DNA of 64,000 bases from Sporosarcina sp. Marseille-Q4063. GTDB lineage: Bacteria; Bacillota; Bacilli; Bacillales_A; Planococcaceae. Of the stretch, positions 23,899 through 51,028 are shown piece by piece. Position 1 is the stretch's first letter; each line of letters opens with the position of its first letter. The translations under genes were made by a program, and so were the position numbers. Location of the stretch: contig NZ_CP070502.1 of NCBI RefSeq assembly GCF_018309085.1, forward strand, positions 2,232,001-2,296,000. The letters are read 5' to 3'. The notes under the pieces are model-generated. The model worked only from the letters and a program-made list of their open reading frames with translations, was not told where the DNA came from and made no database searches.

Positions 23899-24022
23899 TT
23901 TGCTTGCACTTGGGGGCGGTTTGGTTGCACTCTGGTGGGTTTTGCTTGCACTTGAACGTGTTTTGGTTGCACTCATAGGGTGTTTGCTTGCACTCAAATG
24001 GATTTGCTTGCAAGTCGGGACT
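23899..24022. repeat. 21-bp-period array, family A, copy 1 (six TTTGCTTGCACT cores)
   Basis: Cores TTTGCTTGCACT or TTTGGTTGCACT start at 23899, 23920, 23941, 23962 and 23983, and a terminal TTTGCTTGCAAG at 24003. Steps are 21, 21, 21, 21 and 20 bases. The spacers (8-9 bases) are all different but G-rich. The array ends in AAGTCGGGACT. It occupies the gap between the convergent YqcI-family and doc genes. Its sister array is at 50905-51028. Confidence 0.9.
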
Positions 24023-24078
24023 GTGTGCCCACAATAAATTGATCTAGAAAATCAAAAAAACCACAACGATGCGAGGTT

Positions 24079-24477
24079 TTAATGCTTCATAATTCCAAAT
24101 GAATAAGTTTCAATAAAGTTAACCATATCTTCAAATTCATATATACCATTGACAGTATCAACTACAAAATCAGCAGTTTCCTTTTGTGGAGGCATGAATG
24201 AATAACCGTTGTAGTGTAGAAACTGCCTTAACGCAACTAAAGCCGTTCTTTTATTGGCATTATGAAAACAATGATTTTTAGCGATTGATTCAAAAAGGGC
24301 TGCAGCCTTCGAGAACACATCAGGGTAAGCTTCTTCGCCAAAAGCACTTTGCATTGGCCTATGAACGGCCGAGCCTAACAATAAAGGTTCCTTTACGCCT
24401 TTAATCTCCAGAGGCGAATACCGATCAATGAGAAAAAAATTGAGCGCAATTATTTCCTGTGACGTTAAGTATCGCAT
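24079..24477 (-). CDS. doc: type II toxin, Doc/Fic family (death-on-curing)
   Basis: A 132-residue Fic-fold toxin. The active loop is HCFHNANKRTALVAL near residue 71, matching the Doc motif HxFxxxNKR. Doc toxins phosphorylate elongation factor EF-Tu and stop translation; whether this one phosphorylates or AMPylates is not decided by sequence. It follows its antitoxin gene with a one-base overlap (TAATG). The pair forms a compact toxin-antitoxin operon. Confidence 0.9.
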   Translation of the reverse strand: MRYLTSQEIIALNFFLIDRYSPLEIKGVKEPLLLGSAVHRPMQSAFGEEAYPDVFSKAAALFESIAKNHCFHNANKRTALVALRQFLHYNGYSFMPPQKETADFVVDTVNGIYEFEDMVNFIETYSFGIMKH

Positions 24478-24755
24478 TATCGATCCTTCAATTCTTTTAG
24501 TGTGGCGTCGTACATTTCCACTGTCTCATTCAAAACATCAAAGAAATCTTCAGAAATTCCAACTGGATATTCTACTGCTTTTATTTTCTTTATTACTAAT
24601 TCATCTTTCCTCATTTCCACTTGGACATCGTCGCCCTTCGATACTTTTAAATAGTTCAGCATTTCAGAGGATAGCGTCAAACCTAATGAGTTTCCAATTT
24701 GTGTTATTCTTCTTGATTGAGTTCGGGTTTCAACTTGTTCTTCATTCATTTTCAT
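24477..24755 (-). CDS. AbrB/MazE-type antitoxin paired with Doc
   Basis: A 92-residue protein with an N-terminal AbrB/SpoVT swapped-hairpin DNA-binding domain (SRRITQIGNSLGLTLSSEML, then VSKGDDVQVEMRKDELVIKKI) and a C-terminal helix region likely to cover the toxin. It should repress its own promoter and neutralise Doc. This replaces the Phd antitoxin of the classical phd-doc pair. RBS GGAAGGAG precedes the ATG. Confidence 0.88.
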   Translation of the reverse strand: MKMNEEQVETRTQSRRITQIGNSLGLTLSSEMLNYLKVSKGDDVQVEMRKDELVIKKIKAVEYPVGISEDFFDVLNETVEMYDATLKELKDR

Positions 24756-24779
24756 TAAATTCTCCTTCCCATTAATAAC

Positions 24780-24796
24780 GTTATAACTATTATAAC
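24780..24796. promoter_or_regulatory. toxin-antitoxin promoter with inverted-repeat operator
   Basis: GTTATAA-CTA-TTATAAC is a perfect inverted repeat. It overlaps a minus-strand -10 TATAAT, with TTTACG 17 bases upstream as a possible -35. This placement fits autorepression by the AbrB-type antitoxin. Confidence 0.6.
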
Positions 24797-24908
24797 ATTA
24801 TAATTCATTGTCGTAAAGGTATCTATCACGAAATCTGCACTTTACGCGACTAAAAAACATAATTGAAAACACGATTACTTAGACACAATAAGTTATCTGA
24901 TTTCGAAT

Positions 24909-24947
24909 AAAAAGACTGAAAACCATTGATTGGTTTTCAGTCTTTTT
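24909..24947 (-). terminator. terminator after the GrpB gene
   Basis: AAAAAGACTGAAAACCA pairs perfectly with TGGTTTTCAGTCTTTTT around a five-base loop. It can act in both directions. Bases 24800-24900 hold nothing else recognised. Confidence 0.9.
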
Positions 24948-24951
24948 AATT

Positions 24952-25476
24952 TCAATCTTTTAATACACCTAAAATAAATCGCTCTTTATAATTCGTATAA
25001 TCATCCATATCCCCAGTTTCATTCTGAATATAATTCGCTTTTAATTCTTCATATTCTTTTCTTAATGCCTGTGACGAATTAAGTTTGTCGCGGAATAATA
25101 TCAAGTCATTCCACTTTTCACCTCTATAATCCACCATATGAATAATATGAGTTTTGACATCAAATGTTTCATTATTATCAAATTTAGCCAAAACAATTTC
25201 ATCCTCTAACACTACACGAAGACGATAAAAGCTGATCTCTTGTAGACTTCTAAAAATATGAGATGGAACATTATTTACATCATCTACGCCAACAGCAAAA
25301 TCAATCATCGGTTTTGCTTTAATCCCTTTGATGGATGTGCTGCCGATATGTTCAATGCGGTTGATGTCTATGCTAGTTGCTTCATGGATTTCTTTTTGCG
25401 TTTTTAAGAATTCCTCTTTCCAACCTTCTTGCGGTTCAACTAATTTAATTTCCCCTCTGTTCAATCCTAAGATCAC
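24952..25476 (-). CDS. GrpB family protein (UPF0157, nucleotidyltransferase-like)
   Basis: A 174-residue GrpB/UPF0157 protein: IEHIGSTSIKGIKAKPMIDFAVGV near residue 42 is the family's nucleotidyltransferase-like GS and acidic segment, followed by THIIHMV near 110 and LILFRDKL. The family has the fold of minimal nucleotidyltransferases, but the biological substrate is unknown. GTG start at 25476 with GGGGGAG eight bases upstream. Confidence 0.88.
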   Translation of the reverse strand: MILGLNRGEIKLVEPQEGWKEEFLKTQKEIHEATSIDINRIEHIGSTSIKGIKAKPMIDFAVGVDDVNNVPSHIFRSLQEISFYRLRVVLEDEIVLAKFDNNETFDVKTHIIHMVDYRGEKWNDLILFRDKLNSSQALRKEYEELKANYIQNETGDMDDYTNYKERFILGVLKD

Positions 25477-25535
25477 TTTACCGACTCCCCCTATTTCCTT
25501 GTCTTTTTTTGTCGATTTCCCGGGAAATGCGCTAG

Positions 25536-26846
25536 TTATTTTCCGCCCATCTCATAATACAGGTCCATTTCGGTCTGTGGAACCATGCCGCCGCCTGTTG
25601 CCCAAACGATATGTGTTGCATTCGGTGAATTTGCATCTTCACTATTTCCCCGAATCGTATTTATAGGTCCAATCATCCCTGCCAGTGCAGAAGGCTCGAG
25701 TCGAATGCCTTCCGTATCAACAAGTGTTTTCAAGAGTTTGAAAAGTTCTTCATCTTGAATGGTATAAATTGCCGATAATAATGGCTCCATAGTTTTCCCT
25801 GCATGGTGAGAAGGCCTGCCTACCGCAAGACCGTCCGCCGCCGTCAAATTACTGAGGCCGAAGTCTTGAACGGAAACTTTTTCGTGCAGCCTTGTCATCA
25901 TTCCAAGCAGGACAGACGGCGAGTGCGTTGGTTCCGCGAAGAAACAATGCACATTGTCGCCGAAGATGAGTTTCAACCCGAACGCCACACCACCCGGGCT
26001 TCCGCCCACTCCGCAAGGCAAGTAAACAAAAAGCGGGTTCTTCTCATCGACGATTGTTCCGCGTTCTTTCAATTGAGAAGCAATCCGCTCGCCCGCAACC
26101 GCATAGCCGAAAAATAAATCATAAGAGTTTTCATCATCGATAAAATAGCAAGTCGGATCCTCTTCTGCTAGTCGACGTCCTTCGTTTATCGCTACACTAA
26201 AATCATAAGGATATTCGACAACAATGACGCCTTTTTCCCGTAGAAGATTCTTCTTCCACTGTTTTGCATCTGCCGACATATGAACCGTCACGTGGAATCC
26301 AAGTTTCGCGCTCATAATTCCGATGCTGAGTCCAAGATTTCCCGTGGAACCGACGGCGATTTTATGTTTTGCAAATAAGTCTTTGAATTCCTGCCCCGCC
26401 ATTTTCGCGTAGTCATCTTCTTTTGTTAGCAACCCGTGTTCTAACGCAAGCGTTTCTGCATGCTTAAGCACTTCATATATTCCGCCGCGTGATTTAATGG
26501 AACCTGATATCGGCATTGCGTTATCTTGTTTTAACAGAAGTTCGCCAGGAATCTTAACCCCGTAGTTCTGTTCAAGTTCTTTTTTCATAGTTGGTATAGC
26601 AGTCAATGGAGATTCAAGAATTCCATTCGAATCCTGAGTTTCAGGAAAAACAAGTTCAATATATGGCGCGAAACGTTTCAAACGTTCGGAAGCTTCTTTC
26701 ACATCCGCCGCCGTCACTGTCACCTTTGTAAGTCCTGTTTTAGTTGACTCCAGTAAGGGATTTTCCCAAAAGACTACTTCCTCGTTCATTATGTTTCCGA
26801 TTAGCGGCAACTTTTTTTGCCACATATTCGTATCTACTTCACTCAT
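25536..26846 (-). CDS. dsdA: D-serine ammonia-lyase DsdA
   Basis: A 436-residue PLP-dependent enzyme of the DsdA family. The PLP lysine is in [17 protein letters not shown] near residue 115. [11 protein letters not shown] near 168 and [13 protein letters not shown] near 280 bind the cofactor phosphate. It converts D-serine to pyruvate and ammonia, detoxifying or using D-serine. No dedicated regulator (dsdC) or transporter is adjacent. RBS AAAAGGGAGCG precedes the ATG. Confidence 0.95.
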
Positions 26847-26920
26847 GGTCTCGCTCCCTTTTCAGAATGATCTATGATTAGTATACCATTCTGGGCGATT
26901 TGCAATCCTGTCCCAACCTT

Positions 26921-27811
26921 TTATTGATTCACAACAAATTGAGCAATCAGTTCTTCGGTCAGTTGAAATTTAGGATTTGTCTTATCATTTCCGTCTGCTT
27001 CAACGTCCATCACAACAGATATAATGCGCCGCCCGTCGAAAACTCCCGTGCTCGTGAAGCAAGGTCCCGCCATTTCTGTATAACCCGTCTTCATGCCGTC
27101 TATTTCTCCCACAGCCATCGGCATGCCCGGCAACATTGAATTCGTGCTCCAAAGCTGATGACCATCGGTTGTTGTGAAGTTCGTTATTTTCGTGAAATCA
27201 AGCACTTCAGGATATTTGGCAATTAATTGCTGTGCGATTATCGAAACGTCTTTCGCAGAAGAAAGATTCGTTTCATCCTTACTTTTTCCAACATAGTCTC
27301 CGTCCAGCCCGCTCGCGTTATAGAAAATTGTTTTCTTTAGCTTAAAAGCCTTAGCTTGCTTATTCATAAGGTCAACAAAAGCCTCTTCAGATCCACTCAC
27401 CATTTCCGCAAGCGCAATTGCCGCGTCATTCGCAGAAGTTACGGTCATCGCCGTGAAAAGCTCTTTCACAGTATATGTACGATTATTCGACATGCCCAAT
27501 CTAACAACAGCCGATTCACTAGTCATTTCGCGAACATACTCACTCGGACTATATTCACTATTCCAAGACAATGAACCATTCTGAATAGAATTCAACACCA
27601 AGTATTGCGTCATCATTTTAGACATGCTCGCAATAGGCAATGATTCAGTACTATTTTCCTCGTACAAAACCTTCCCCGTCTCCGCGTCGATTAAAATAAT
27701 CGCCTTAGCCTTCACACCAAAATCATGGGGATCAGTTGTAGGAATATCATTTTTAAAAGCCAGCGTAAAGCCAATAATTAGTATGAGTACAATAAATAGA
27801 AACTTCTTCAT
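26921..27811 (-). CDS. D-alanyl-D-alanine carboxypeptidase (PBP5-like, DacF type)
   Basis: A 296-residue secreted or membrane-anchored serine peptidase. An N-terminal hydrophobic segment (FLFIVLILIIGFTLAF) is followed by the penicillin-binding triad SMSK near residue 63, SAN near 126 and KTG near 243 (GMKTGYTEMAG). It trims the terminal D-Ala from peptidoglycan stems. It is shorter than vegetative PBP5 and lacks the usual C-terminal beta domain and amphipathic anchor, so it probably stays attached by the uncleaved N-terminal helix. Confidence 0.9.
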   Translation of the reverse strand: MKKFLFIVLILIIGFTLAFKNDIPTTDPHDFGVKAKAIILIDAETGKVLYEENSTESLPIASMSKMMTQYLVLNSIQNGSLSWNSEYSPSEYVREMTSESAVVRLGMSNNRTYTVKELFTAMTVTSANDAAIALAEMVSGSEEAFVDLMNKQAKAFKLKKTIFYNASGLDGDYVGKSKDETNLSSAKDVSIIAQQLIAKYPEVLDFTKITNFTTTDGHQLWSTNSMLPGMPMAVGEIDGMKTGYTEMAGPCFTSTGVFDGRRIISVVMDVEADGNDKTNPKFQLTEELIAQFVVNQ

Positions 27812-27946
27812 GTAAACACGCCTTTTCGATTATTCGTTATCTTTATCTTAGCCACTGAAACTGAAGAATCTCACAGTTAATTCATGAAGAATTCCTTAAG
27901 ATTTGCAAATTTATTTATATAAACCCGCATATAGTGAACATAGTTG

Positions 27947-28200
27947 ATTGGAGTGGAGGGCGGCGACTCCAGCGGAATCAGCGAGAAAGTCGAGACCCTG
28001 GACTGAGCGTAGCGAGGGAAGCGGCTCGGCGCTCGCCCGCAGGAAAATGATAAAAGTTGAAGGAGGCGGTTAGATGCGACAAGCATAAGACGAATTAACG
28101 GAGTGGCGTTTTTTTGCCACGCAGTTAATTTGGCTTATCACTCGAGCATCTGCCTCCAGAGACTAGATAAGCGCCGCCCGCAACGGAAATCAACGGCTTC
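27947..28200. repeat. composite interspersed repeat with long imperfect hairpin
   Basis: A GC-rich block with phrases such as GGAGGGCGGCGACTCCAGCGG and GCTCGCCCGCAGGAAA (27954-28046) resembles the non-coding interspersed repeats seen in many Bacillaceae genomes. It is followed by a 96-base hairpin: GGAGGC (28062) with GCCTCC (28152), AGATGC with GCATCT, ATAAG with CTTAT, GAATTAAC with GTTAATTT, and GTGGC with GCCAC around a T-rich loop. A second GCGCCGCCCGCAACGG phrase follows. No protein is coded. It may be a structured RNA or a MITE-like element. Confidence 0.6.
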
Positions 28201-28209
28201 AGCCATAAG

Positions 28210-28371
28210 CTATCTCAAAAATAACCAAATCAAAATCAATATAACCCCAAAACCCAACCATAAAGAAGACAACATTCGCTCGCGTTTCTTCTTATCCTCC
28301 ATACCACGTGTCAAATACCGGATAATTAATTCAGCCACAACCGCAATCATAATAATTATTATCCAATTCAT
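28210..28371 (-). CDS. 53-residue small membrane protein
   Basis: A short open frame with two hydrophobic segments (NWIIIIMIAVVAELIIRYL and LWLGFGVILILIWLFL) around a basic loop (TRGMEDKKKRERM). ATG at 28371 lies eight bases after AGGGGG; an ATG at 28377 is too close to it. No family is recognised. It is read away from the PhoD-like gene. Confidence 0.65.
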   Translation of the reverse strand: MNWIIIIMIAVVAELIIRYLTRGMEDKKKRERMLSSLWLGFGVILILIWLFLR

Positions 28372-28478
28372 ATTCATTCCCCCTATTAATAACCAATTTT
28401 AACATATCCCTTTGCACACACCACCGTCATCCAATCCGAATACACTACTGTAATAAGTTAATAATGGTGGTGAATTCG

Positions 28479-30500
28479 ATGGAATTAGCAACAATTCTAG
28501 CTGGGCCAATATTACGAAGAGTTGACACGAACTCGGTCACGATTTGGATCGCGACCAGTCGACCCTTCGATATTGATGCAGCAATTTATATGATAAACGA
28601 GCGGCTTTCATTGCCCGTACAAACAAATACGACTTCAATTCGCGCAGGGAAAAACTTATTCCTTCACCTTGTTGAAATTAACGGTTTTTTCCCCATGGAC
28701 ACTTTACTCGGCTACAATCTGTATTTCCATGACGGGGAAGACGCCTACGACTTAACGAGCCTCGGTTTAATTTCCGACAACGAGGAACTGTCCATCGCCT
28801 ATGACGATATCCCTTACCCATCCTTTCACATTCCCGCGAACACCACCTCGAACTTCCTTTATGCATCTTGTCGAAAATTTCACGGAAAGGGTGGTGATTC
28901 ACTTGTAGCTGGGGATAAAACGATTTGCAACGCACCCAGAAATTTGAAAAGTCGTCCGAGCTCGCTATTCTTACTCGGCGATCAAATCTATGCGGATGAC
29001 GTAGCGGATCCACTTTTCCCGGTTATTCAATCAGTTGTGGAATGCCTCGCATTTAAAGATGAAAATTTAGCGCAAGTAGAACCTCGTCTCGCTGGATATC
29101 CTTTTAATAAATTAATCCAGAAAATTAACGGCCGCCAATTCAGCATGGAACAATTTTGTCAATTCACATCAGCTAGTATGAGTAATCACTTAATGACGTT
29201 TGGTGAATATGCTGCGATGTATCTATTGTCATGGGGACCGGCGTTATGGGAAACAGCATATATTCCAACATTCGAGGAAGTCGTGGAAAAGGGACATTAC
29301 CATTTTATCTTCCCGAATGATAAAACCGAAATTGTAAAATGCGAGAAAAGCTATAATCGGCAAACGGAAGACCTTCTTCAAACCATCGGAAATCTGCACC
29401 AGGTTCGCAGACTACTAGCAAACGTGCCGACGTACATGATTTTCGATGACCATGATGTAACGGACGATTGGAATGTGTCTCAAAAATGGCAGGAAAATGT
29501 TTCGCGGTCACCTTTAGGCAAACACGTTATTGCAAACGGATTATGTGCATATTGGGCTTTTCAAGGCTGGGGCAATGAGCCACAACGGTTCGAGGAGGCG
29601 TTCCTACAGTCGATGGAAGATCATTTAGACAGGTTCGTTGCCGGCACACCCGCCTATGAAGAATGGACCCGACGGCTTTGGACATTCACGCATTGGCATT
29701 TTGTCGCGCCGACTAAACCCGCTGCGCTATTTCTAGATACGCGGACAAAGCGTTCCTTTGACGACGCGCCGCAATCCGTGAAAGTCGGTTGGATGTTCAA
29801 AGAAAATGTTCAGGCGCCTAGATTGATTGGTCCTAAAGGATGGCAAAGGATAGCCAGGACACTTTCGTTTTCCGGTTGGAAAAAGAGAGACCCTTTAATC
29901 ATTATTTCCCCAACGCCGTTGTACGGCATGGGTTTGATAGAATCAGTGCTTCATTCTTATGTCTATCCGCTCCGAGCCATTGGAATACCCGTTCACGAAA
30001 TGCTCGATTTTGAAGCTTGGAAATATAACGGAAATGGGTTCAGCGATTTTATTCGCTTTATTTTTAAATGGCAGCCTTCCAAGTGCATCATTTTGTCTGG
30101 GGAAGTCCATTATGCTTCCGCTGTAAAGTCTCGCGTCGAATCCAAAAGAGGGCGGACGACGGAAATTATCCAGTTCACAAGCAGTCCATCAAATAATATG
30201 AGTTTTACCGGCGTATGGGGTTTTCTGATGAAGTCTGCGCTTTGGTGGAATACGCAAAAACGTAAAAGGAAATACATTTCACGACACTGTGATGACTCGT
30301 TCACCATTTTAAACGAACGCTATAATGGAGGTAGTCGTCCGGAATGGCAAGAGGAACTCCATTATTTAAAAACAAATAAAGGATCCATTGTCGAGACGAA
30401 AAACAATATCGGGCTTTTATCAATCGGTAAGGGAACGATTGAAAATTCACTGCTTCAGATAAAAGGCGAACAAGTAAAGGCTTCAAAATATAAAAGTTAA
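28479..30500 (+). CDS. PhoD-like phosphatase / metallophosphoesterase
   Basis: A 673-residue alkaline-phosphatase-D-like protein. The metal sites appear in order: ASCRKFHGKG near residue 126, FLLGDQIYADD near 165, MIFDDHDVTDDWN near 322 and LSGEVHYAS near 540. These coordinate the Fe/Ca-type centre of PhoD relatives. There is no obvious Tat signal, unlike secreted PhoD, so it is probably cytoplasmic with an unknown phosphoester substrate. The first 15 bases of the longest frame are the ribosome site GGTGGTG, so ATG at 28479 is used. Confidence 0.85.
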   Translation: MELATILAGPILRRVDTNSVTIWIATSRPFDIDAAIYMINERLSLPVQTNTTSIRAGKNLFLHLVEINGFFPMDTLLGYNLYFHDGEDAYDLTSLGLISDNEELSIAYDDIPYPSFHIPANTTSNFLYASCRKFHGKGGDSLVAGDKTICNAPRNLKSRPSSLFLLGDQIYADDVADPLFPVIQSVVECLAFKDENLAQVEPRLAGYPFNKLIQKINGRQFSMEQFCQFTSASMSNHLMTFGEYAAMYLLSWGPALWETAYIPTFEEVVEKGHYHFIFPNDKTEIVKCEKSYNRQTEDLLQTIGNLHQVRRLLANVPTYMIFDDHDVTDDWNVSQKWQENVSRSPLGKHVIANGLCAYWAFQGWGNEPQRFEEAFLQSMEDHLDRFVAGTPAYEEWTRRLWTFTHWHFVAPTKPAALFLDTRTKRSFDDAPQSVKVGWMFKENVQAPRLIGPKGWQRIARTLSFSGWKKRDPLIIISPTPLYGMGLIESVLHSYVYPLRAIGIPVHEMLDFEAWKYNGNGFSDFIRFIFKWQPSKCIILSGEVHYASAVKSRVESKRGRTTEIIQFTSSPSNNMSFTGVWGFLMKSALWWNTQKRKRKYISRHCDDSFTILNERYNGGSRPEWQEELHYLKTNKGSIVETKNNIGLLSIGKGTIENSLLQIKGEQVKASKYKS

Positions 30501-30502
30501 TT

Positions 30503-30533
30503 AAAACTCCGCCAGATAATCGGCGGAGTTTTT
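30503..30533. terminator. bidirectional terminator between phosphatase gene and kynA
   Basis: AAAACTCCGCC pairs with GGCGGAGTTTTT around AGATAATC. It serves the convergent genes on both sides. Confidence 0.9.
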
Positions 30534-30536
30534 CAC

Positions 30537-31355
30537 TTATAGATTTGTCCTTACACCCCAAAGTTCCGGGAAAAACTGATGATCAAGGACAGACTTCAAG
30601 TAGCTTACGCCCGCTGAACCGCCAGTCCCTTTTTTAAAGCCAATAATCCTTTCGACCGTTTTCATATGACGGAAACGCCATTGTTGATGGCTATCTTCAA
30701 TATCGACCAACTTTTCAGCGAGTTGATATAAATCCCAGTGACTCTCTACATTTCGGTACACTTCCAACCAAGCTTCCGCGACAGATTGGTCCCCCTTGTA
30801 CGTGATGGAGAAATCTCGGTTCAATAATTCCGGGTTAATGGAAAATCCAGCTTTTGCAAGCGCACGAATCGATACATCATAAATACTCGGCGCTTTAAAG
30901 GCTGCTTCCAGTTCTCCAGCAAGTTCAGGGTCTTTCTCATAGATTTTCAAAATATGCGGTTGTTTATAACCGAGCGCAAACTCGATAAGCCTGTTTTGGT
31001 ATGATTGAAAACCTGATGCGCGGCCTAAACTATCTCGAAACTCCATGTATTCTGCCGGCGTCAACGTTGCCAGCACATCCCAAGCTTGAATGATTTGCGT
31101 TTGAATGCGTGAGACCCGTGCAAGCATTTTAAACGCTTCTGGCAACTCATCCTTTTCGATTAATTCGACGGCAGAATTTAGTTCGTGCAAAATTAGTTTC
31201 ATCCAAAGCTCGCTCACTTGGTGAATGACGATAAATAACATTTCATCGTGATGTCCTGAAAGTCGCGTCTGGCTAGACAACACTTTGTCGAGATTTAAAT
31301 ATTCGCCGTATGTCATCTGTTCTTTAAAATCTGTGTAAATCCCTTTGTCATCCAT
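30537..31355 (-). CDS. kynA: tryptophan 2,3-dioxygenase KynA
   Basis: A 272-residue haem dioxygenase that opens the indole ring of L-tryptophan to N-formylkynurenine. Marks are the [23 protein letters not shown] region near residue 34 with the active-site histidine, [15 protein letters not shown] near 112 and the haem-ligand region [21 protein letters not shown] near 228. The ATG overlaps the end of kynB by eight bases; AAGGAG is the ribosome site. It is the last gene of kynUBA. Confidence 0.96.
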
Positions 31356-31995
31356 TTTTCCGCACTCCTTCGATGGGTCTTATCACTGCACGAACTGGGC
31401 TACCGTCAGCATCCGCTAAAGGAAGAGGCAGCGCAATTAATTCGTAATCGCCAGGTTCGACAGATTCAAGAAAGATATTTTCCAAAATCATCACGCCATT
31501 ATTGTTCAGCGAATGATGCGCATCCAGTGATTTACTCGTTTCCGGGTCAACCGACGGCGTATCAACACCGATGAGACGGACTCTGCGCTCTTTTAATAAT
31601 GGGCCAATATCCGCACGCAAATAGGTGAAGACTTCCGGAAAAACAGTAAAACTTGAGCGACTGCCCGTTTTCAATAAAATCCGCTCTGCGCCGCCGAAAT
31701 CGATACTTTCCAATTCCGCGCGACCGATGCTTTCATGTCCTGAAACGTCAATGACTCTTGCCCGGCCGATGTACAAATCAATTGGCAAATCAAGCACTTT
31801 CAAACCATCGTCATCGAAATGAAATGGTGCGTCGATATGCGTTCCCATATGCATGCTTGTCGTCATTTTTCCGATATTCACGGAACCCGTATCTGACTTC
31901 TTGAACGCAACTTCATAGGAAAATGGCGTATCCCCCGGCCATTCTGCAATCCCGTTTCGAAGCGGTTGTGATATATCAATCCATTTCTTCGTCAC
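31348..31995 (-). CDS. kynB: kynurenine formamidase KynB
   Basis: A 215-residue cyclase-family hydrolase that splits N-formylkynurenine into kynurenine and formate. The metal-binding motif [12 protein letters not shown] lies near residues 47-58, with [19 protein letters not shown] near 145 and VIRPI near the end. It overlaps kynU and kynA, giving a tightly coupled operon. Confidence 0.96.
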
Positions 31996-43206: not shown

Positions 43207-43212
43207 TATTCG

Positions 43213-44601
43213 TTATTCCCCCTTTGTCCCGCCAACAGTTATTTCACTGACTCGAATCATCGGCTGGCCGACGTTTACAGGCAAACTTCCACTAATCGAT
43301 CCGCACATTCCCGCGCCGTGCGCAAGATTGTTCCCCACCATATCGACTTTTTGCAGTGTTTTTGCACCATTCCCGATCAATGTCGCACCGCGAACAGGTC
43401 GGTCAATTTTCCCGTTTTTCACAAGATAGGCTTCAGAAACAGCAAAGTTATAGTCGCCTGTTGCTGGATTCACCGAGCCGCCGCCCATATATTTCGCGTA
43501 AATTCCATTTTCCGTCGAAGCAATGATATCTTCGGGTTTTGATTTCCCAGGCGCGATATAAGTGTTCGTCATTCGCGATGTCGGATTAAATCTGTACGAT
43601 TCGCGGCGCGAAGAACCCGTCGCTTCCGCATTCATCCGGCGTGCGTTGAATTTATCTATCAAATAGCCTTTCAAAATACCATCTTCAATCAGGATGTTTT
43701 TCCGCGTCTTTTCCCCTTCATCGTCAATATTGAGCGAACCCCATTCATTCGGAAGTGTACCGTCATCGATATACGTCACGATCTCCGGCGCTACTTTTTC
43801 ACCGATGCGATTCGCGAAGACAGAGTTGTTTTTAGCAACGGACGTCGCTTCAAGTCCATGACCACAAGCTTCATGGAAAATAACTCCGCCGAATTCATTA
43901 TCAATAATGACAGGAAATTTCCCGCTCGGGCATTCATCGGCTTCTAGCATCGTCACAGCAATACGCGCCGCCTCGCCCGCATAATGATCAAGGTCCAGAT
44001 TTTCAATAAACTCAAAACCCGCATGCGCACCCGGCCCGTAAAAACCAGTTTGCAATGCTGCACCGTCAGACGCAGTCGCTTGAATCGCCAGTCGACTATA
44101 AACGCGCGTGTCTTCCACGAATTTCCCTTCTGAATTCGCGATGAGTATATTTTGTTCTTCATCAATATAGCGCAGGCCGACTTGTTGAATGCGCTCATCA
44201 TAATTTCGTGCAATGTCATTCGCTTTTTTCATAACTGCCGCCCTCTGCGCATGCTTCACCGTTTGCGGCATCTGGGAAATTATGTGGATCGGCTTGATGA
44301 TTTCTTTTTGCAACGGATGAATGGTGCCATTCCCCCCGCCCTTTATCGCCAGCGCCGCCTTTTTAGCAGCCTTCACTAATCCTTCTTCCGAAAAATCGGT
44401 CGTGTACGTATACACGTTTTGAAGTCCCGAAAAAATACGGATCCCGATACCGAAGTCGCGACCCGATATACTTCTTTCAATTTTATTATCTTGTAATGCC
44501 AATGTGTTCGCATATCGGTCCTCGACAAACACTTCAGCAAAATCGCCGCCCGTCGATAAGGCAGCCTCGATTACATTTTCGATGATTGATTGTTTAATCA
44601 T
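43213..44601 (-). CDS. tldD: TldD metalloprotease
   Basis: A 462-residue protein carrying the zinc motif HEACGHGLEA (HExxxH) near residue 240. It also has NIDDEGEKTRKNILIEDGILKGYL near 283 and the C-terminal GGSVNPATGDYNFAVSEAYLVKNGK. It forms the catalytic half of TldD/TldE. RBS AAGGGGGGAA precedes ATG. Family C array 1 lies just upstream at 44688-44810. Confidence 0.92.
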   Translation of the reverse strand: MIKQSIIENVIEAALSTGGDFAEVFVEDRYANTLALQDNKIERSISGRDFGIGIRIFSGLQNVYTYTTDFSEEGLVKAAKKAALAIKGGGNGTIHPLQKEIIKPIHIISQMPQTVKHAQRAAVMKKANDIARNYDERIQQVGLRYIDEEQNILIANSEGKFVEDTRVYSRLAIQATASDGAALQTGFYGPGAHAGFEFIENLDLDHYAGEAARIAVTMLEADECPSGKFPVIIDNEFGGVIFHEACGHGLEATSVAKNNSVFANRIGEKVAPEIVTYIDDGTLPNEWGSLNIDDEGEKTRKNILIEDGILKGYLIDKFNARRMNAEATGSSRRESYRFNPTSRMTNTYIAPGKSKPEDIIASTENGIYAKYMGGGSVNPATGDYNFAVSEAYLVKNGKIDRPVRGATLIGNGAKTLQKVDMVGNNLAHGAGMCGSISGSLPVNVGQPMIRVSEITVGGTKGE

Positions 44602-44687
44602 GTGTTTATTCCCCCCCTTAGTCCTAATTATAACGGAAGTTAGACTGTTTTGTATTATTAGTTTTTTACTTTCGGTTTGGGCGGCGG

Positions 44688-44810
44688 ATATCCGTAGTTT
44701 TAAGGACGATATCCGACGGTTTAAACGTGATATCCGACAAAATGGAGCGGTTATCAGTCCCTTCTAAACTTATATCAGCACCTTTTAGCCATATATCCGC
44801 AAAACAGGAC
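44688..44810. repeat. 21-bp-period array, family C, copy 1 (six ATATCCGAC cores)
   Basis: Cores begin at 44688, 44709, 44730, 44751, 44772 and 44793, every step exactly 21 bases. They read ATATCCGTA, ATATCCGAC, ATATCCGAC, TTATCAGTC, ATATCAGCA and ATATCCGCA; the 12-base spacers differ. The end ATATCCGCAAAACAGGAC is shared with copy 2 at 45939-46061. The tail stops a few bases from the NERD gene stop codon. Confidence 0.9.
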
Positions 44811-44817
44811 CTATGAC

Positions 44818-45807
44818 TCACTCCTTTTTCAAAAAAAGCAGTTGTTTTTCTAACTCATTTAACGATAAGGAGTATTTCCGACCTTTGTTTTCCCCTTGGA
44901 ACGACAAATTCATTTGTTTCAACAAACGAGTTGTTTTATCCCCCGATGAAAGATGAAGAAACTCTCTGCATTGCCTATTGGTCATCGAGTTTCCAAACAA
45001 CATAAAGTAATCAAGAACTGCATGTTTATACGCATCCCTACTAAAATACTTGCAAGATTTACAACCCCAGCCTCTAGCTGTAGAAGTCATTTCGTGTAAT
45101 CCGCATTGATGACAACGAACACCGATCATAATTTCATGAATATCAATTTTGTATTTTTCACAAATGGGGAATGGATCATATTCACGATGGGCTACTAAAA
45201 GACTTTTGGCAACTAAATCAAGTACTTGTATGTCTAAAATAGGGGGAGATTTCATTAATTTCCTCAAATATACTGGGACTTCAAGCGGAAAAAGTAGCGT
45301 TAAATCTTCTGGAATGTTCTCAAAATGTTGACGAGGATTTGGGAAGACAGCAGCACCGCGTATTGGAACATCCTTCAAACCATTAGAATAAAACCAATCC
45401 TCCAGCAAGAATTTGTTTCGTTCAAGTTGCACAGACGGACATTCATAAACATCAATTTGCCCATTGTCCAAAGTACGCATTAGTTGCTTACTTTCATGCA
45501 GGAAACGAATTTTTCCTGCTATGTTTTTCATTTCAAAAATGACTGCCCCATGGCGTGATAAAAACAATGTATCCAACTGAAAAAGCCCTGTAGACTTCAA
45601 ATTTAAATCATGAAATATGTAATGGGGATCGAGAAACGAATACTTTTGAAAAACATTAGTCAGGATTTTTTCACCATTTACTCCAGCTCTAACTATTCGA
45701 AGCTCTTCAGCAATACTGCTTTTCTTCTTATAAGAAAGAGATAATCGCGAGTCCAATGCTTCAAGTCCTCTCAATTTAAATGGAACTGCATTCTTTTTTA
45801 TAATCAA
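44818..45807 (-). CDS. NERD-domain protein with zinc ribbon and winged-helix-like end
   Basis: A 329-residue protein. Residues 40-150 form a NERD nuclease-related domain: GVNGEKILTNVF, LDTLFLSRHGAVIFEMKN (the D...E.K catalytic-like set) and WFYSNGLKDVPIRGAAVFPNP. A zinc ribbon CHQCGLHEM...GWGCKSCKYF follows near residues 235-260, then a helical DNA-binding-like end. It probably acts on DNA. The start is TTG at 45807 with GGGGGTGG upstream. The gene is flanked on both sides by family C repeat arrays, which is unusual. Confidence 0.82.
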   Translation of the reverse strand: MIIKKNAVPFKLRGLEALDSRLSLSYKKKSSIAEELRIVRAGVNGEKILTNVFQKYSFLDPHYIFHDLNLKSTGLFQLDTLFLSRHGAVIFEMKNIAGKIRFLHESKQLMRTLDNGQIDVYECPSVQLERNKFLLEDWFYSNGLKDVPIRGAAVFPNPRQHFENIPEDLTLLFPLEVPVYLRKLMKSPPILDIQVLDLVAKSLLVAHREYDPFPICEKYKIDIHEIMIGVRCHQCGLHEMTSTARGWGCKSCKYFSRDAYKHAVLDYFMLFGNSMTNRQCREFLHLSSGDKTTRLLKQMNLSFQGENKGRKYSLSLNELEKQLLFLKKE

Positions 45808-45938
45808 TCCATACCACCCCCATCAAAAGCGTATCACGGGCGACGTCCTTTGACTACGTATTGTCTGAACATTTAATTTTAACCCGTTTTTTCTCATCAA
45901 AATCAATTTTTCAGAGTGAACTTGCTTTGAAAATGAAT

Positions 45939-46061
45939 TTATCAGCAGTTTCAGCACGTATATCCGACACATCACCACATATATACCTCACATAAAACCA
46001 TATATCCGACACTTCCAACCTGATATCCGCACATTCCACACACATATCCGCAAAACAGGAC
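45939..46061. repeat. 21-bp-period array, family C, copy 2 (six ATATCCGAC cores)
   Basis: Cores begin at 45939, 45960, 45981, 46002, 46023 and 46044, each exactly 21 bases apart: TTATCAGCA, ATATCCGAC, ATATACCTC, ATATCCGAC, ATATCCGCA and ATATCCGCA. The terminal ATATCCGCAAAACAGGAC matches copy 1 exactly. It fills the gap between the NERD gene start and a small membrane peptide gene; the rest of 45808-46174 shows nothing else except a weak promoter region before the peptide. Confidence 0.9.
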
Positions 46062-46174
46062 TATCCGACTACCCCATCCCGTCAACATTTCCGCCACATC
46101 CCCCGATTGCCCAGGGTAGCAAGTAATGATATACTATATGAAACAGATTTATCGAAAAAGGAGTGAAATGCTTC

Positions 46175-46267
46175 ATGTGGTTCCTATACATTATGTTTAC
46201 ACTATTCGCATTCGTCAGCATCGGTACAATCGCAGGTCTTGTACGTACGTTCAGCAGCGATAACTAA
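46175..46267 (+). CDS. 30-residue single-helix membrane peptide
   Basis: ATG at 46175 follows AAAAGGAG at 11 bases and opens a frame for one membrane helix (WFLYIMFTLFAFVSIGTIAGL) with the short tail VRTFSSDN. It ends directly before a strong terminator, so it forms its own small transcription unit. No family assigned. The clean promoter-to-terminator packaging supports a real gene. Confidence 0.65.
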   Translation: MWFLYIMFTLFAFVSIGTIAGLVRTFSSDN

Positions 46268-46281
46268 TTAGTTCCAAATAT

Positions 46282-46318
46282 AAAAAGCCCTCTGCATTTT
46301 TCAGCAGAAGGGCTTTTT
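46282..46318. terminator. bidirectional terminator
   Basis: AAAAAGCCCTCTGC pairs with GCAGAAGGGCTTTTT around a short loop. It serves the small peptide gene and the ABC operon on the other strand. Confidence 0.92.
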
Positions 46319-46323
46319 GCATT

Positions 46324-47253
46324 TTAAGCAGTAACATCTCGTTTACTAAAGGTAAAATAACTAACTGCTAAGAACACAACAGCGTAAACAAGCACAACTG
46401 CCACCGAGAATGCCATCGTGTTGCTATCGAGCATTTTAAAACCAAGCTCATATTGCGTTAAATCATGTGCAAAGAAGATGTACTTCGCAATTTCAAATTT
46501 CTCAAGGAACATAACGATAATCGTACCCGAGAAAAATAAGAAAATCGATAAACCAACTGCCAATGATGTAGAACGGAAAACTGACCCGACCATGAACGCA
46601 AACGTTGAAATCACAATCACATTCACGAGCGATAAGAACATCATATAAGCCGACTTGCCCCATATCGCTGTAAGCGCTAAATCCGTGCCGCTCCAAATAA
46701 TTGAATTACCTTCCGCTGACGGGAAAAAGATAAATGCGCTTATGATGGTAAATACATACACGAGTACGGTTAACGACAACCCGAACAATATAATCGTTAC
46801 ATATTTCGACGTTAATATTTTCCATCGTTTGACCGGCCTGGATAGCAACATTTTGATCGTCCCTTGCGAGAACTCGGATGCCACGATACCAGCTGAAGCA
46901 ATAATCGTGAACAAGGTGACAAGCGACATCGTGCCGTATGCATCGACTATCGTTCTTTCACGACTTCCAGGCTGATTCCATTCCGCATTCATCATGATGT
47001 TTTCTTCTAAACCTTGCTTCTGTGCCTCTAAATCAGCTCTTTCATCATCCGTTAAATCCGGTGATGCAAGTTGTTCTTCCATTTGAACAACTTCCGCTTC
47101 CATTTCCTCAATCCACGTCGTGTCTGTAAATCGTTCGGACAGTTTTGTAAGTCCCGCAAGTCCAATAATGGCGACAACAAGAAGTATGGCCATGATCCAA
47201 GTCGCTTTTTTATGCCATAACTTCATCCATTCATTTTGTATGAGCTTCAGCAA
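46324..47253 (-). CDS. ABC transporter permease (ABC-2 type)
   Basis: A roughly 309-residue ABC-2 permease with six helices: a cytoplasmic start (NEWMKLWHKKATWIMAIL), a large extracellular loop rich in Glu/Gln (about residues 35-90) and FTIIASAGIVASEFSQGTIKMLLSRPVKRW near residue 115. It pairs with the ATPase encoded just upstream. I favour TTG at 47253, eight bases after AGGAGG, over the GTG at 47262 that overlaps the ribosome site. The substrate is unknown; relatives export lipids or peptides. Confidence 0.85.
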   Translation of the reverse strand: MLKLIQNEWMKLWHKKATWIMAILLVVAIIGLAGLTKLSERFTDTTWIEEMEAEVVQMEEQLASPDLTDDERADLEAQKQGLEENIMMNAEWNQPGSRERTIVDAYGTMSLVTLFTIIASAGIVASEFSQGTIKMLLSRPVKRWKILTSKYVTIILFGLSLTVLVYVFTIISAFIFFPSAEGNSIIWSGTDLALTAIWGKSAYMMFLSLVNVIVISTFAFMVGSVFRSTSLAVGLSIFLFFSGTIIVMFLEKFEIAKYIFFAHDLTQYELGFKMLDSNTMAFSVAVVLVYAVVFLAVSYFTFSKRDVTA

Positions 47254-48154
47254 TTTGGCCACCTCCTGTCATTTCTAAGAATTGATCTTCAAGCGTTTTA
47301 CGATGCGGATTAACCGCGAACAACAGAATCCCTTCCGTCGCCAGTTTTTTCATTAGCCCAGGAATTTGTTCTTTTTCCGCTTCGATAATAAACCCTTCAT
47401 TAAATAACTCAACCTCAAACCCTTCAGCAACTAAGATACTTTCGACCGCGGACAGAGGTAAAGCTTCGATATAATAATGCGATTTCTTCGTATCTGTCAT
47501 TTCATCGATATCGATTAACTTTCCATTTTGAATAACCGCAATCCGGTCACACATCAGTTCAATTTCCGATAACATATGACTTGAAACAAAAACCGAAACA
47601 CCTTCCTCTGATGCAATCTTACGCAAATACATCCGGAACTCACGAATTCCCGCTGGATCCAATCCGTTTGTCGGCTCATCGAGAATCAAAAACTTCGGAC
47701 GATGCAATAATGCTTGCGCAAGCCCGAGACGCTGCCGCATTCCAAGAGAATACGTTGACACTTTCTCATGAATTCTATTTTGCATGCCAACTTGCGCAAT
47801 AACCTCGTCAATTCTTGCCTTCGTCACGTTATCATGCATTCGCGCGAAATGTAATAAATTTTTATAACCCGACATGAATTTATACATCTCTGGGTTCTCA
47901 ACAATAACGCCGACCTTTGAAATACTGCCTTCAAAGTCATCTCTCAACGACTTTCCCTCTATTAATACATCACCTTCTGATGGTTTCATCAACCCGACCA
48001 TCATCCGGATTGTTGTCGTTTTCCCAGCTCCGTTCGGCCCGAGAAATCCTGTAATTTGACCCGGATACAACGACAAATTCAAATTGTCGATGATTTTTTT
48101 CTTCCCAATCGTTTTCGATAAATTCTTCAATTCTACTACCGGTTTTATCCCCAC
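47231..48154 (-). CDS. ABC transporter ATP-binding protein (BcrA-like)
   Basis: A 307-residue ATPase. Walker A is GPNGAGKTT near residue 37, the signature is YSLGMRQRLG near 133, Walker B is FLILDEPTNGLDP, and the switch histidine is in VSSHMLSE. The C-terminal extension is typical of bacitracin/lantibiotic-type exporters. GTG at 48154 (MGIKPVVELKN) is preferred: AAAGGGG precedes it, and the longer frame starts inside the upstream gene. It overlaps the permease gene by 23 bases. Confidence 0.88.
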   Translation of the reverse strand: MGIKPVVELKNLSKTIGKKKIIDNLNLSLYPGQITGFLGPNGAGKTTTIRMMVGLMKPSEGDVLIEGKSLRDDFEGSISKVGVIVENPEMYKFMSGYKNLLHFARMHDNVTKARIDEVIAQVGMQNRIHEKVSTYSLGMRQRLGLAQALLHRPKFLILDEPTNGLDPAGIREFRMYLRKIASEEGVSVFVSSHMLSEIELMCDRIAVIQNGKLIDIDEMTDTKKSHYYIEALPLSAVESILVAEGFEVELFNEGFIIEAEKEQIPGLMKKLATEGILLFAVNPHRKTLEDQFLEMTGGGQIAEAHTK

Positions 48155-48155
48155 A

Positions 48156-48854
48156 TTATGACCCCTTTCTAAACAAAGATACCATCCAACTCGTGGCATC
48201 TTTCCCGTGTATATCACGGATTTCATCGACCGCCTCGTGCGCGATCACTTGCCCTTCTCTAAGTACTACGATTTCATCGAGCAAAGGTTCCACTTCTTTT
48301 AATTCATGCGTCGACATAATGATTGTTTGTCGTTCTGTATCAGTAAAACGAATGAGTCCTTTCGCAATATCATCGCGCACCATCGGATCCAGTCCAGAGA
48401 AAGGTTCATCCAATAAATAATAGCTCGCTTCACGGCCAAGTGTGACCGCGATTTTAACCCGTCCGCGATTCCCTTTCGACAAGTTTTTTATTCTCGCATC
48501 AAGCGCCACGCTCAAAAACTGTGCAATTTCCTTTGCTTTAATCAAATCAAAATCCTCAAACTGCGAATCATAGAAATCGAAAAGCTGCTCGACTGTGAAA
48601 TAAGGATAGAATAGATCTGTATCCGGCATATACGCGATTTCGGAGGCAATTTTCCGTGTAATCGATGTGCCTCCGTACAACGCTTTTCCACTATCCGGCG
48701 TTAATAAACCCGCCGTCAATTTAAGAAGCGTTGTTTTCCCACTACCGTTTTCACCAACCAATCCGATAATCTTCCCTTGTGGAATAATCAATTCAATTTC
48801 ATGAAGCGCTTTTCGACTTCCATACTTTTTCGATACCTTTTTCAGCTCAATCAT
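48156..48854 (-). CDS. ABC transporter ATP-binding protein (YtrB-like)
   Basis: A 232-residue ATPase: Walker A GENGSGKTT near residue 35, signature LSKGNRGRVKIA near 130, Walker B YYLLDEPFSGLDP near 150. The signature has GNRGR instead of the usual GQ.QR, a mark of YtrB-type subunits. It should power the two permeases encoded upstream. ATG at 48854 overlaps the ytrA end by eight bases, a coupled pair. Confidence 0.88.
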   Translation of the reverse strand: MIELKKVSKKYGSRKALHEIELIIPQGKIIGLVGENGSGKTTLLKLTAGLLTPDSGKALYGGTSITRKIASEIAYMPDTDLFYPYFTVEQLFDFYDSQFEDFDLIKAKEIAQFLSVALDARIKNLSKGNRGRVKIAVTLGREASYYLLDEPFSGLDPMVRDDIAKGLIRFTDTERQTIIMSTHELKEVEPLLDEIVVLREGQVIAHEAVDEIRDIHGKDATSWMVSLFRKGS

Positions 48855-49215
48855 TCCCCGCACCCCGTTTCGTTAAATAATCCACCATTTCTACCGTCGT
48901 AAAGCCAAGCGCTTCACTATTTTGAATGAATGACGCGATAAGTTGTTCTTTCATTTCGTCGCGGAGCCCGGAAATTTTTCGAATATCCTCCGTCACGAAA
49001 GATCCTTGCCCCCTCTTCGTCTCGGTAATCTCCATTTGCTCCAGCTCCTTATAGACGCGCTGCATCGTATTTGCATTCACACCGGCTTGAACCGCATAAT
49101 CTCGAACAGACGGCAATTTCTCACCAGGCATCAATGATCCCCGAATAATATCGCCAATAATCCGGTCCATCAGTTGCTGATAAATTGGCTTATCTGGAAG
49201 AAAATCCATCATCAT
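48847..49215 (-). CDS. ytrA: GntR-family repressor, YtrA subfamily
   Basis: A 122-residue short GntR regulator: PIYQQLMDRIIGDIIRGSLMPGEKLPSVRDYAVQAGVNANTMQRVYKELE is the winged helix-turn-helix, followed by the short dimer helix (FIQNSEALGFTTVEMVDYL) that defines the YtrA subgroup. In Bacillus YtrA represses its ABC operon until cell-wall antibiotics that block lipid II appear. A palindromic operator candidate lies before the first gene. Three ATG codons stand in a row at the start. Confidence 0.88.
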   Translation of the reverse strand: MMMDFLPDKPIYQQLMDRIIGDIIRGSLMPGEKLPSVRDYAVQAGVNANTMQRVYKELEQMEITETKRGQGSFVTEDIRKISGLRDEMKEQLIASFIQNSEALGFTTVEMVDYLTKRGAGND

Positions 49216-50021
49216 AACCTCACTTTCTTCTCAAACACCTTGGCACCGACCGCGAAGAATATCAGGGTTACAGCGCCATATAGGATGAGCCCGCCAACCG
49301 AGAAGACGATGCCATCAGGTACGATTCCCGTGAAAAAATAACTGTTTTGTTCATTGTAAAAAGCTAATTCCGTTAATTTAACTGATCCAAATCCTTTGAT
49401 GTTCATTAGAAATTCTATTGATCTAAACAACCCAGCGATCACAGATCCCGTAAAGATTCCCGCGAAGAAAAGTAATGTCGTAAAAATGACTGACAGACCC
49501 TTTGATCTGGAACGTCCGATTTGATAAAAGGACCAAAACATAAAACCGAAGCCCATGATATAAATTGATTTCAAAAAAATTGAAATCATGACACTGACCA
49601 TCGAAAGCACCCCGTCAAACCTTGGTATCGTTCCATACGCGTCAGATATCATGAACGAAATACTTAGGAGAACCCCATTCAATATGAGTATCAGCCCCGT
49701 CACCGCTACTGCAAAGACCGCTTTAATGCCGACAAGTTGCCACATTGGCGCAGGCGAATGCATCCAAATCTCCGGTTGCTTCATTTCTTTCTCAAGACTC
49801 GTAAATAAAATAACAACACCTGCAGATATCGTAAACGCGAACCAAGTACCGGAAATGATGAGCGAGTTTTCAAACGTATTCATCGGCAAATCAAATGCAC
49901 GGTTAATCAGCGGCGGCACGACCAACACAACCGCGATATTCACAAAAACCAAGGCAAGAATTCCCCACTTTAAAAGAATCCACTCTTTCCGCATTAATCC
50001 CTTCATACTTTTTACGTCCAT
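49212..50021 (-). CDS. ABC transporter permease, second of a tandem pair
   Basis: A 269-residue, six-helix membrane protein. It starts MDVKSMKGLMRKEWILLKW and ends FEKKVRL; the preceding gene starts and ends in the same way (GLMRKEW..., FEKKVRL), so the two are tandem paralogues. Both share the ISAG/LHSTAPxxxL-type loop (here MHSPAPMWQLVGIKAVFA). They probably form a heterodimeric channel for the YtrB-like ATPase. Confidence 0.82.
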   Translation of the reverse strand: MDVKSMKGLMRKEWILLKWGILALVFVNIAVVLVVPPLINRAFDLPMNTFENSLIISGTWFAFTISAGVVILFTSLEKEMKQPEIWMHSPAPMWQLVGIKAVFAVAVTGLILILNGVLLSISFMISDAYGTIPRFDGVLSMVSVMISIFLKSIYIMGFGFMFWSFYQIGRSRSKGLSVIFTTLLFFAGIFTGSVIAGLFRSIEFLMNIKGFGSVKLTELAFYNEQNSYFFTGIVPDGIVFSVGGLILYGAVTLIFFAVGAKVFEKKVRL

Positions 50022-50022
50022 A

Positions 50023-50796
50023 TTAAAGCCTCACTTTCTTTTCGAATAAAGTGATTGCGACGATGAAAAACAAAAATGCTATTGCAAAATCAATCAGTAA
50101 TTCACCAGTATAGATTTTCATATCTGCAAATGCAGAAAGGAAATTCTCTTTTTCTAGGTCGAAGCCAACACCCTGATTCAACTGACCGAAACGAGTGATT
50201 TTGGTATAAACCACCAATTCTGCTAATCTCGCCTGCAACCAAGATAAAAACAAAAAGATCACAACAACGATTGGTCCTGAAAACCCTTTTACAACCGGTT
50301 TTAATAATTGATAAAGCACCCCTAGGAATAAACCGATGCACATGATGAAAAGTGATAACAAAAAGAACATTAGCGCTATCGTCGTTCCAAATTGAAACAC
50401 TGCAACAAATGATGTCGTTGACCCTGAAAGTCTTGATTCGATAAGAACAATCGCAAGCGGAAACAATATATTCACAAACCCAATCATCGAAGCAAACAGT
50501 GCTTTCACACCAAATAGTTTACCTGTCGGTGCCGTTGAATGAAGCCATACATCCGGCCGGTGCATCTCCTTATTCAATGAGACCAGTAAAACCATTGTCG
50601 GTAAGATCACACTTAGTAACAATCCCCATATCCCGCTGTATATCGGCAATATCTCGATTACACGTACCTCTTCCATTATGAAAGTACTGGCAAACGACAG
50701 GAAAAGGACACCGCATATTTGCGTGATCAGCGATCCGTAAAACCATCCATTCATCACAGACCATTCTTTCCTCATCAACCCATTCCATTGCTTCAT
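50023..50796 (-). CDS. ABC transporter permease, first of a tandem pair
   Basis: A 257-residue, six-helix permease and first gene of the six-gene operon. ATG at 50796 (MKQWNGLMRKEW) follows GAGAGGAGATG; the longer frame includes the promoter region and is rejected. LHSTAPTGKLFGVKALFA near residue 95 matches the neighbouring paralogue. The substrate is unknown. Confidence 0.82.
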   Translation of the reverse strand: MKQWNGLMRKEWSVMNGWFYGSLITQICGVLFLSFASTFIMEEVRVIEILPIYSGIWGLLLSVILPTMVLLVSLNKEMHRPDVWLHSTAPTGKLFGVKALFASMIGFVNILFPLAIVLIESRLSGSTTSFVAVFQFGTTIALMFFLLSLFIMCIGLFLGVLYQLLKPVVKGFSGPIVVVIFLFLSWLQARLAELVVYTKITRFGQLNQGVGFDLEKENFLSAFADMKIYTGELLIDFAIAFLFFIVAITLFEKKVRL

Positions 50797-50830
50797 ACGT
50801 TCATCTCCTCTCCGTATTGGTGTATTAGTT

Positions 50831-50846
50831 ATATAGTACACTATAT
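50831..50846. promoter_or_regulatory. YtrA-type palindromic operator
   Basis: ATATAGTACACTATAT is a 16-bp palindrome (seven-base arms around AC) 35 bases before the operon's first ATG. GntR repressors of the YtrA group bind palindromes with GT...AC cores at this position. Confidence 0.65.
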
Positions 50847-50904
50847 GTAAGTCGGAAGTAAAGTGTTTATTCAAAAGAATTATCATCTTTTTAACTTATT
50901 TGAT

Positions 50905-51028
50905 TTTGCTTGCAGTTGGAATGGGTTTGCTTGCACTATGGATTGGTCTCCTTGCACTCTGTCTTACTTTGCTTACATTAAACTAAATTTGCTTGCACAT
51001 CCCACGGATTTGCTTGCAAGTCAGGACT
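50905..51028. repeat. 21-bp-period array, family A, copy 2 (six TTTGCTTGCACT cores)
   Basis: Cores begin at 50905, 50926, 50947, 50968, 50988 and 51009 (steps 21, 21, 21, 20, 21): TTTGCTTGCAGT, TTTGCTTGCACT, TCTCCTTGCACT, TTTGCTTACATT, TTTGCTTGCACA, TTTGCTTGCAAG. Spacers differ from each other and from copy 1. The last unit, GGATTTGCTTGCAAGTC then AGGACT, matches copy 1 except one base. It lies between the ABC operon start and the TSUP gene end. Confidence 0.9.

Follow-up and report, generated by a model that had tools for sequence, protein, structure and literature searches.

What are the six short arrays of phased repeats that lie between genes in a 64,000-nucleotide stretch of Sporosarcina sp. 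Marseille-Q4063 DNA (NZ_CP070502.1, positions 2,232,001 to 2,296,000; the whole stretch is called the window below), and to which protein do they belong? A sequence-only reading had described them as three families, each with exactly six cores at a step of 20 or 21 bp and each a binding platform for its own DNA-binding protein. The analysis reported here indicates that the arrays are probably the dispersed repeats of an element in which a gene for a NERD-domain protein stands between two arrays. The NERD protein is predicted to bind the core through a winged helix and is the likely spreader of the arrays through its nuclease domain.

Six phased arrays in the window

Pattern searches and chain counts confirmed the six places and the 20- to 21-bp step. 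The cores fall into the families F1 (AAACGACYA), F2 (TTTGCTTGCACT) and F3 (ATATCCG), and all six arrays are read on the plus strand. F1 forms solo arrays of six units at 1309-1421 and 54990-55101, the second with orthologous arrays in two related genomes, G003 and G012. F2 forms a solo array of six units at 23899-24022, with steps of 21, 21, 21, 21 and 20 bp and the tail AAGTCGGGACT, which is also present in G003 and G012, and a second solo array that spans 50905-51053 with its tail; G003 has an array at the latter site, where 147 bp in the window correspond to 4 bp in G012. The F3 arrays, at 44688-44810 (tail GCAAAACAGGAC) and 45939-46061, have the same orientation, the first lying on the 3' side of the NERD gene and the second on its 5' side. 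Within the window the count of six cores held for both F1 and both F2 arrays, no core having more than two mismatches, and each F3 array has six phased positions of which two are degenerate (TTATCAG at 44751 and ATATCAG at 44772; TTATCAG at 45939 and ATATACC at 45981). A strict de novo scan recovered five of the six arrays and missed the one at 44688.

Two known kinds of element were considered and rejected. An RNA element is ruled out, since no Rfam match was found at the arrays (gathering thresholds, window) and single-strand DNA folds of the six window arrays were no better than those of shuffled sequences, with z-scores of -1.36 to 1.78 and no hairpins. Rfam matches elsewhere in the window were a guanidine-I riboswitch at 4591-4689 (minus strand) and 5_ureB_sRNA at 59070-59365 (plus strand). 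In a CRISPR array, unique spacers separate identical repeats that are about 21 nt long or longer; judged on the repeats alone, the present arrays are not of this kind, their conserved core being 7-12 nt long and varying between units.

A NERD gene between arrays of its own core

The gene between the two F3 arrays, of which the sequence-only reading made no mention, lies on the minus strand at 44818-45807 and encodes a protein of 329 residues that matches the NERD domain (PF08378) with 44.8 bits against a cut-off of 22.1. The same domain was matched by all 14 proteins of set A1 (E ≤ 1). The protein combines a putative PD-(D/E)XK-type nuclease domain, with predicted active-site residues E46, D79, E92 and K94, a zinc ribbon (C232/C235/C249/C252) and a predicted winged helix. 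G45, E46, D79, K94 and the four cysteines are invariant in 82 NERD proteins, and E92 is conserved at 90% or more. The assignment of the PD-(D/E)XK motif is our own, and the nuclease activity is a prediction. In the AlphaFold2 model (mean predicted local distance difference test score, 93) the winged helix is C-terminal and resembles regulators such as MarR and ArsR, the centromere binder AspA and also TubR, the last by Foldseek and absent from the VIA rows. No new fold is claimed, because structure searches miss weak relatives. The zinc ribbon gave weak matches to IS1595 and Cas12f-like domains, one member matched NCBIfam IS200_TnpB (E 0.0003), and no HUH/Y1 transposase was found among the Pfam families listed for the 14 proteins.

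The array-NERD-array cassette occupies an unaligned slot at 44617-46082 (no strand assigned). Most aligned stretches of G012 share 84-92% identity with the source genome, and there the slot, with the same neighbours on either side, contains a divergent NERD gene between two F2 arrays; its product is 49% identical to the window protein, and both slots measure about 1.45 kb. The same slot in G003 contains an 80% identical NERD protein between degenerate F3 arrays. These slot contents pair core with protein, suggesting that the core belongs to the NERD protein. For F1, arrays flank an open NERD gene in G012, and the corresponding gene of the source genome (2996994-2997950, between arrays at 2996693 and 2997955) carries two stop codons. 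For all three families, the source genome or a close relative has a NERD gene that stands between two same-orientation arrays of the family's core.

Searching four genomes with the window protein yielded 20 NERD places. Phased arrays with differing cores were detected at 11 of these at the first threshold, below which the window locus fell; four more (L134, L141, L142 and L145) showed phased repeats by eye in the printed flanks, and the remaining four were fragments at which no array was detected.

At L102 in G012 (G012:C1:2216000-2235500) a tandem duplication of more than 6 kb, covered at its left side and junction, is marked by F1 arrays at both of these points, as if they had been recombination sites. 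The core that accompanies a NERD protein 48% identical to the window protein at L311 (G034) is GAGTGCAAG; read as its reverse complement, this core overlaps that of F2.

Arrays at NERD loci of other genera

The association was surveyed at the best 80 of 214 relatives from a scan of named genomes. The loci came from Sporosarcina, Filibacter, Psychrobacillus, Siminovitchia, Lederbergia, Bacillus, Cytobacillus, Rossellomorea, Thalassobacillus, Halobacillus, Halalkalibacter, Alkalihalobacillus and Geomicrobium, and an array was defined as a chain of at least four units within a 700-bp flanking window. Such chains were present in 47/80 upstream and 47/76 downstream windows (94/156 in total; four loci had too little downstream sequence), as compared with 14/511 windows more than 1 kb away at the same loci. 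At least one flanking array was found at 67 of the 80 loci and arrays on both sides at 27, with lineage-specific cores. The upstream core was found again downstream in the same orientation at 36 of 45 loci (two of the 47 with an upstream array lacked downstream sequence), and the downstream core was found again upstream at 27 of 47; inverted recurrence was observed at none in either direction. Recurrence in foreign loci amounted to 164/3375 and 161/3619, respectively. Protein set A5 covers 68 of the 80 loci, leaving out six whose sequence has stops or is not a multiple of three in length and six that duplicate G003 or G005 genes.

NERD protein and core co-vary: protein identity was correlated with core similarity (Mantel r 0.40, 0/1000 permutations, n = 62 loci). 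Together with the NERD/zinc-ribbon/winged-helix gene that stands between two arrays of its core, this supports the earlier proposal that each family has a DNA-binding protein of its own, here a predicted binder.

The association follows the class of NERD protein. Arrays accompanied 13 of 26 zinc-ribbon NERD genes and one of 36 without a zinc ribbon (0/6 and 1/30; Fisher P = 1e-5). The 26 and the six form a 32-gene sample drawn, among the matches listed, by a frame length of 307-357 residues and one gene per genome, without regard to arrays, and one of its loci (L289) is also in the 80-locus set; the 30 other-class genes were top-scoring NERD matches. The single array beside a gene without the zinc ribbon was at L236, and the NERD gene at 3333119, which lacks the zinc ribbon, has no arrays. 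When the closest NERD gene in each of 26 genus genomes was considered, 18 had an array of at least four units, these loci partly overlapping the 80-locus set. Of 200 genomes sampled from the class, 148 had a NERD match. Beside NERD genes of other genomes (L208, L261 and L285) arrays reached 33-34 units with a step of 20 bp, in contrast to the solo arrays of six units.

Array families across the genome

The sequence-only reading had proposed a genome scan of the cores, and this was run with each pattern read backwards as the control. Phased pairs were far above the control for F1 (98 vs 0), for F2 with up to two mismatches (139 vs 7; the places of 100 of the 139 are among the matches listed) and for F3 (22 vs 0), which rules out chance. 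Two more cores, ACGGGARYAA (156 vs 1) and TGTCSKCYCAAT (16 vs 0), gave similar results, so the source genome has at least five array families and the original count of three was too low. Arrays of these two cores adjoin three further NERD genes, two of which are 50% identical. A remnant of the TGTCSKCYCAAT family, two cores with three mismatches on the minus strand at 4803-4835, lies in the window and was absent from the sequence-only reading; a fuller array (L280, G000:C1:2231475-2231651) stands just left of the window, and others adjoin two other NERD genes. In one Bacillus and one Lederbergia genome the cognate core GAACGGGAA also forms phased pairs genome-wide (138 vs 0, and 63 vs 0 at eight places, respectively).

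Chains of at least three cores numbered 38 for F1 (one of which, at 2892232, looks spurious), 30 for F2 and 10 for F3 in 626 kb of fetched stretches, the window included. Both F1 and F2 arrays have 3-8 units, with six units in 13/38 and 20/30, respectively, and 18 of the 20 six-unit F2 arrays have steps of 21, 21, 21, 21 and 20 bp. Six units is therefore the mode and not the rule, and the claim of exactly six cores did not extend from the window to the genome. Steps other than 20 or 21 bp are rare (one of 22 bp, and 42 or 43 bp at a degenerate core). Beyond stray matches, F1 and F2 are present in only 3 of 37 genus genomes. Within 80 kb around the F1 NERD locus lie 13 of the 38 F1 arrays, a count slightly favoured by the fetching of these 80 kb whole and of the remainder around matches. 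The stretch G000:C1:2940000-3062000 holds the F1 NERD gene, two further NERD genes and about one third of the F1 arrays.

The occurrence of several NERD genes with different cores in one region, and of NERD domains in defence proteins, would fit a role in defence or self-marking, in which the arrays label self DNA for the nuclease or keep the nuclease inactive until foreign DNA arrives. The NERD proteins gave weak matches to PglW and MADS6. No dedicated PADLOC or NCBIfam model matched the family in protein-level searches, and such a function, which we regard as improbable, would not seem to need dozens of dispersed arrays for each family. Membership in a known defence family is rejected, only weak PglW, MADS6 and similar matches having been found.

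The arrays are diverged copies of a polar element

Spacers within one array mostly differ, as the sequence-only reading had stated. Slippage is accordingly ruled out, as that reading had also concluded, by non-identical spacers within most arrays; a few hold repeated unit pairs (F1 2978533 and F2 2958616). Between arrays of one family, however, the spacers are diverged copies by position, and in this respect the claim that they are not copies failed. For F2 the similarity between arrays was 0.463 at the same position and 0.284 at different positions, and for units 1-4 alone 0.361 vs 0.303; for F1 the difference was weak (0.391 vs 0.359). None of 500 permutations reached these values in any of the three comparisons. 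A common tail follows the last core of F2 arrays, and the nine F2 arrays that fall short of six units, as read from the printed arrays, lack 5' units and keep the tail. Position-wise spacer likeness, 5' loss and the kept tail together identify the array family as diverged copies of one polar element; dispersal as diverged copies is clear for F2 and slight for F1.

F3 arrays end in a tail similar to that of F2 arrays, and the F3 array at 2822238 contains the spacer CACTCAAATGATT of F2 arrays with a different core word. This sharing of tail and spacer, which was not part of the sequence-only reading, makes F2 and F3 look like one element in which the core word was changed.

A fixed 3' tail and 5' loss resemble non-autonomous elements, and, like miniature inverted-repeat transposable elements (MITEs), the arrays are short, dispersed and non-coding, with one end conserved. 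Repeats of an ordinary MITE-like or tandem kind could have been moved by an unrelated transposase, with the NERD genes merely adjacent. Such an origin is very improbable, because core identity follows the NERD protein, arrays occur at the zinc-ribbon class and hardly at other NERD genes, and the folds described above contain no hairpins. Nor was a target-site duplication recognised when eight junctions, several of them decayed, were compared by eye.

Conservation and gene context

Core conservation was compared in 27 orthologous pairs from G003 and G012 stretches that had been picked for core pairs, a choice that somewhat favours kept cores. Core mismatches were 37/549 (6.7%) for F1, 52/663 (7.8%) for F2 and 7/154 (4.5%) for F3, as compared with 170/523 (32.5%), 174/555 (31.4%) and 40/226 (17.7%) in the spacers and 14.5, 22.2 and 20.8% in the flanks. 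By this comparison the cores are conserved between species and the spacers are not. F1 and F2 spacers (about 32%) diverge more than the array flanks (15-22%, partly coding), a sign of faster change inside the arrays.

Arrays were found in 21/35 convergent, 41/114 tandem and 6/32 divergent gaps of the fetched stretches, which were chosen around arrays and whose open reading frames were called by a simple length rule. The scarcity of arrays in divergent gaps makes promoter function unlikely, in agreement with the sequence-only reading, and promoter elements are rejected. The right-hand gene faces the array in 25/30 F2, 8/10 F3 and 23/37 F1 cases. Directly 3' of the F2 array at 23899-24022, about 880 bp (24030-24908) containing a Fic-domain gene (24079-24477) are absent from the same place in G003 and G012, a possible recent gain beside the array.

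The strongest rival explanation casts the arrays as host binding platforms at the ends of genes: NERD or another protein would occupy six sites at gene 3' ends, for transcription ends or chromosome organisation, and the arrays would have dispersed long ago and be inactive now. Cores kept at orthologous sites while spacers drift, the avoidance of divergent gaps, the facing of arrays by right-hand genes and the resemblance of the predicted winged helix to MarR, ArsR, AspA and, by Foldseek, TubR all favour such a platform, as does the persistence of orphan families without their NERD gene. Against it stand the nuclease residues, invariant or nearly so in 82 proteins, the direct orientation of NERD-adjacent arrays of up to 33-34 units, and the confinement of F1 and F2 to a few genus genomes, unlike a conserved host site. 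We consider this explanation rather unlikely.

Several results also weigh against arrays spread by NERD proteins. Families persist where the cognate NERD gene was not found or is broken, and F2 core mismatches between two genomes without an F2 NERD gene were no worse (23/288 vs 29/375). No target-site duplication was recognised at the eight junctions mentioned above. Six F2 sites compared with interpolated G012 and G003 stretches gave only absences and decayed arrays without a duplication, and a clean transposition footprint can therefore not be claimed.

Proposed mechanism and relation to known systems

In the explanation that we favour, the dispersed NERD-array element, the winged helix likely reads one core of 7-10 bp per two helix turns, and up to six NERD proteins could line up along one face of the DNA. 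The nuclease domain likely drives the copying of arrays to new sites and would act on the arrays beside its own gene. Spreading by NERD and service as a host platform may both be true, the element being now domesticated.

Winged helices such as TubR and AspA bind iteron and centromere arrays, which sit at a plasmid origin or centromere. Unlike these, the present arrays are dispersed by the tens along the chromosome, and a nuclease domain forms part of the protein.

The closest parallel is given by repetitive extragenic palindromic (REP) sequences and the REP-associated tyrosine transposases (RAYTs, TnpA-REP). REPtrons have been described with the enzyme gene between two short repeat copies, dispersed repeats, co-evolution and a pile-up near the gene (PMC2817692, PMC8266576), and TnpA-REP proteins as HUH enzymes that process single-stranded REPs (PMC8266576). 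In the present system the NERD gene is likewise flanked by a dispersed repeat (F3 in the window, F2 and F1 in G012, and both sides at 27/80 loci), and repeat and enzyme co-vary by the Mantel correlation. By analogy, the NERD-array system appears to work like RAYT/REP, and we infer that NERD proteins would bind, cleave and copy arrays in cis and in trans. It departs from RAYT/REP in three defining features. The enzyme is a NERD/zinc-ribbon/winged-helix protein and not an HUH tyrosine transposase, the flanking repeats are direct (36 in the same orientation vs 0 inverted) where those of RAYT/REP are inverted, and the repeats are phased arrays without a hairpin, as seen in the six window arrays, where REPs are palindromes.

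More tentatively, and with a little less than even confidence, we propose a new class of element in Bacillus relatives, in which a nuclease unrelated to known transposases reads a lineage-specific word of 7-10 bp, present once in every two helix turns, and copies entire arrays to gene 3' ends. A change of word would lead to arrays being rewritten or replaced, leaving orphan families that are kept by the host.

Implications

The authors of the SmdA paper state that, to their knowledge, the role of NERD domains in bacteria had not been studied before (PMC9040797). No account of repeat arrays or dispersed repeats linked to NERD genes was found in the literature searched, most subscription papers being outside its scope. 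If NERD also spreads the arrays, the system would be a genetic element, mobile or domesticated, of a kind that has not been described, and a second, unrelated solution to the problem solved by RAYT/REP, that of a chromosomal enzyme populating a genome with dispersed repeats and keeping them. The NERD domain, widespread and little studied, would acquire a likely target on DNA and a part in shaping genomes. Since there are many pairs in which core and protein vary together, the code by which NERD proteins recognise DNA could be worked out directly, and repeat families that have been puzzling in Sporosarcina and its relatives would be explained.

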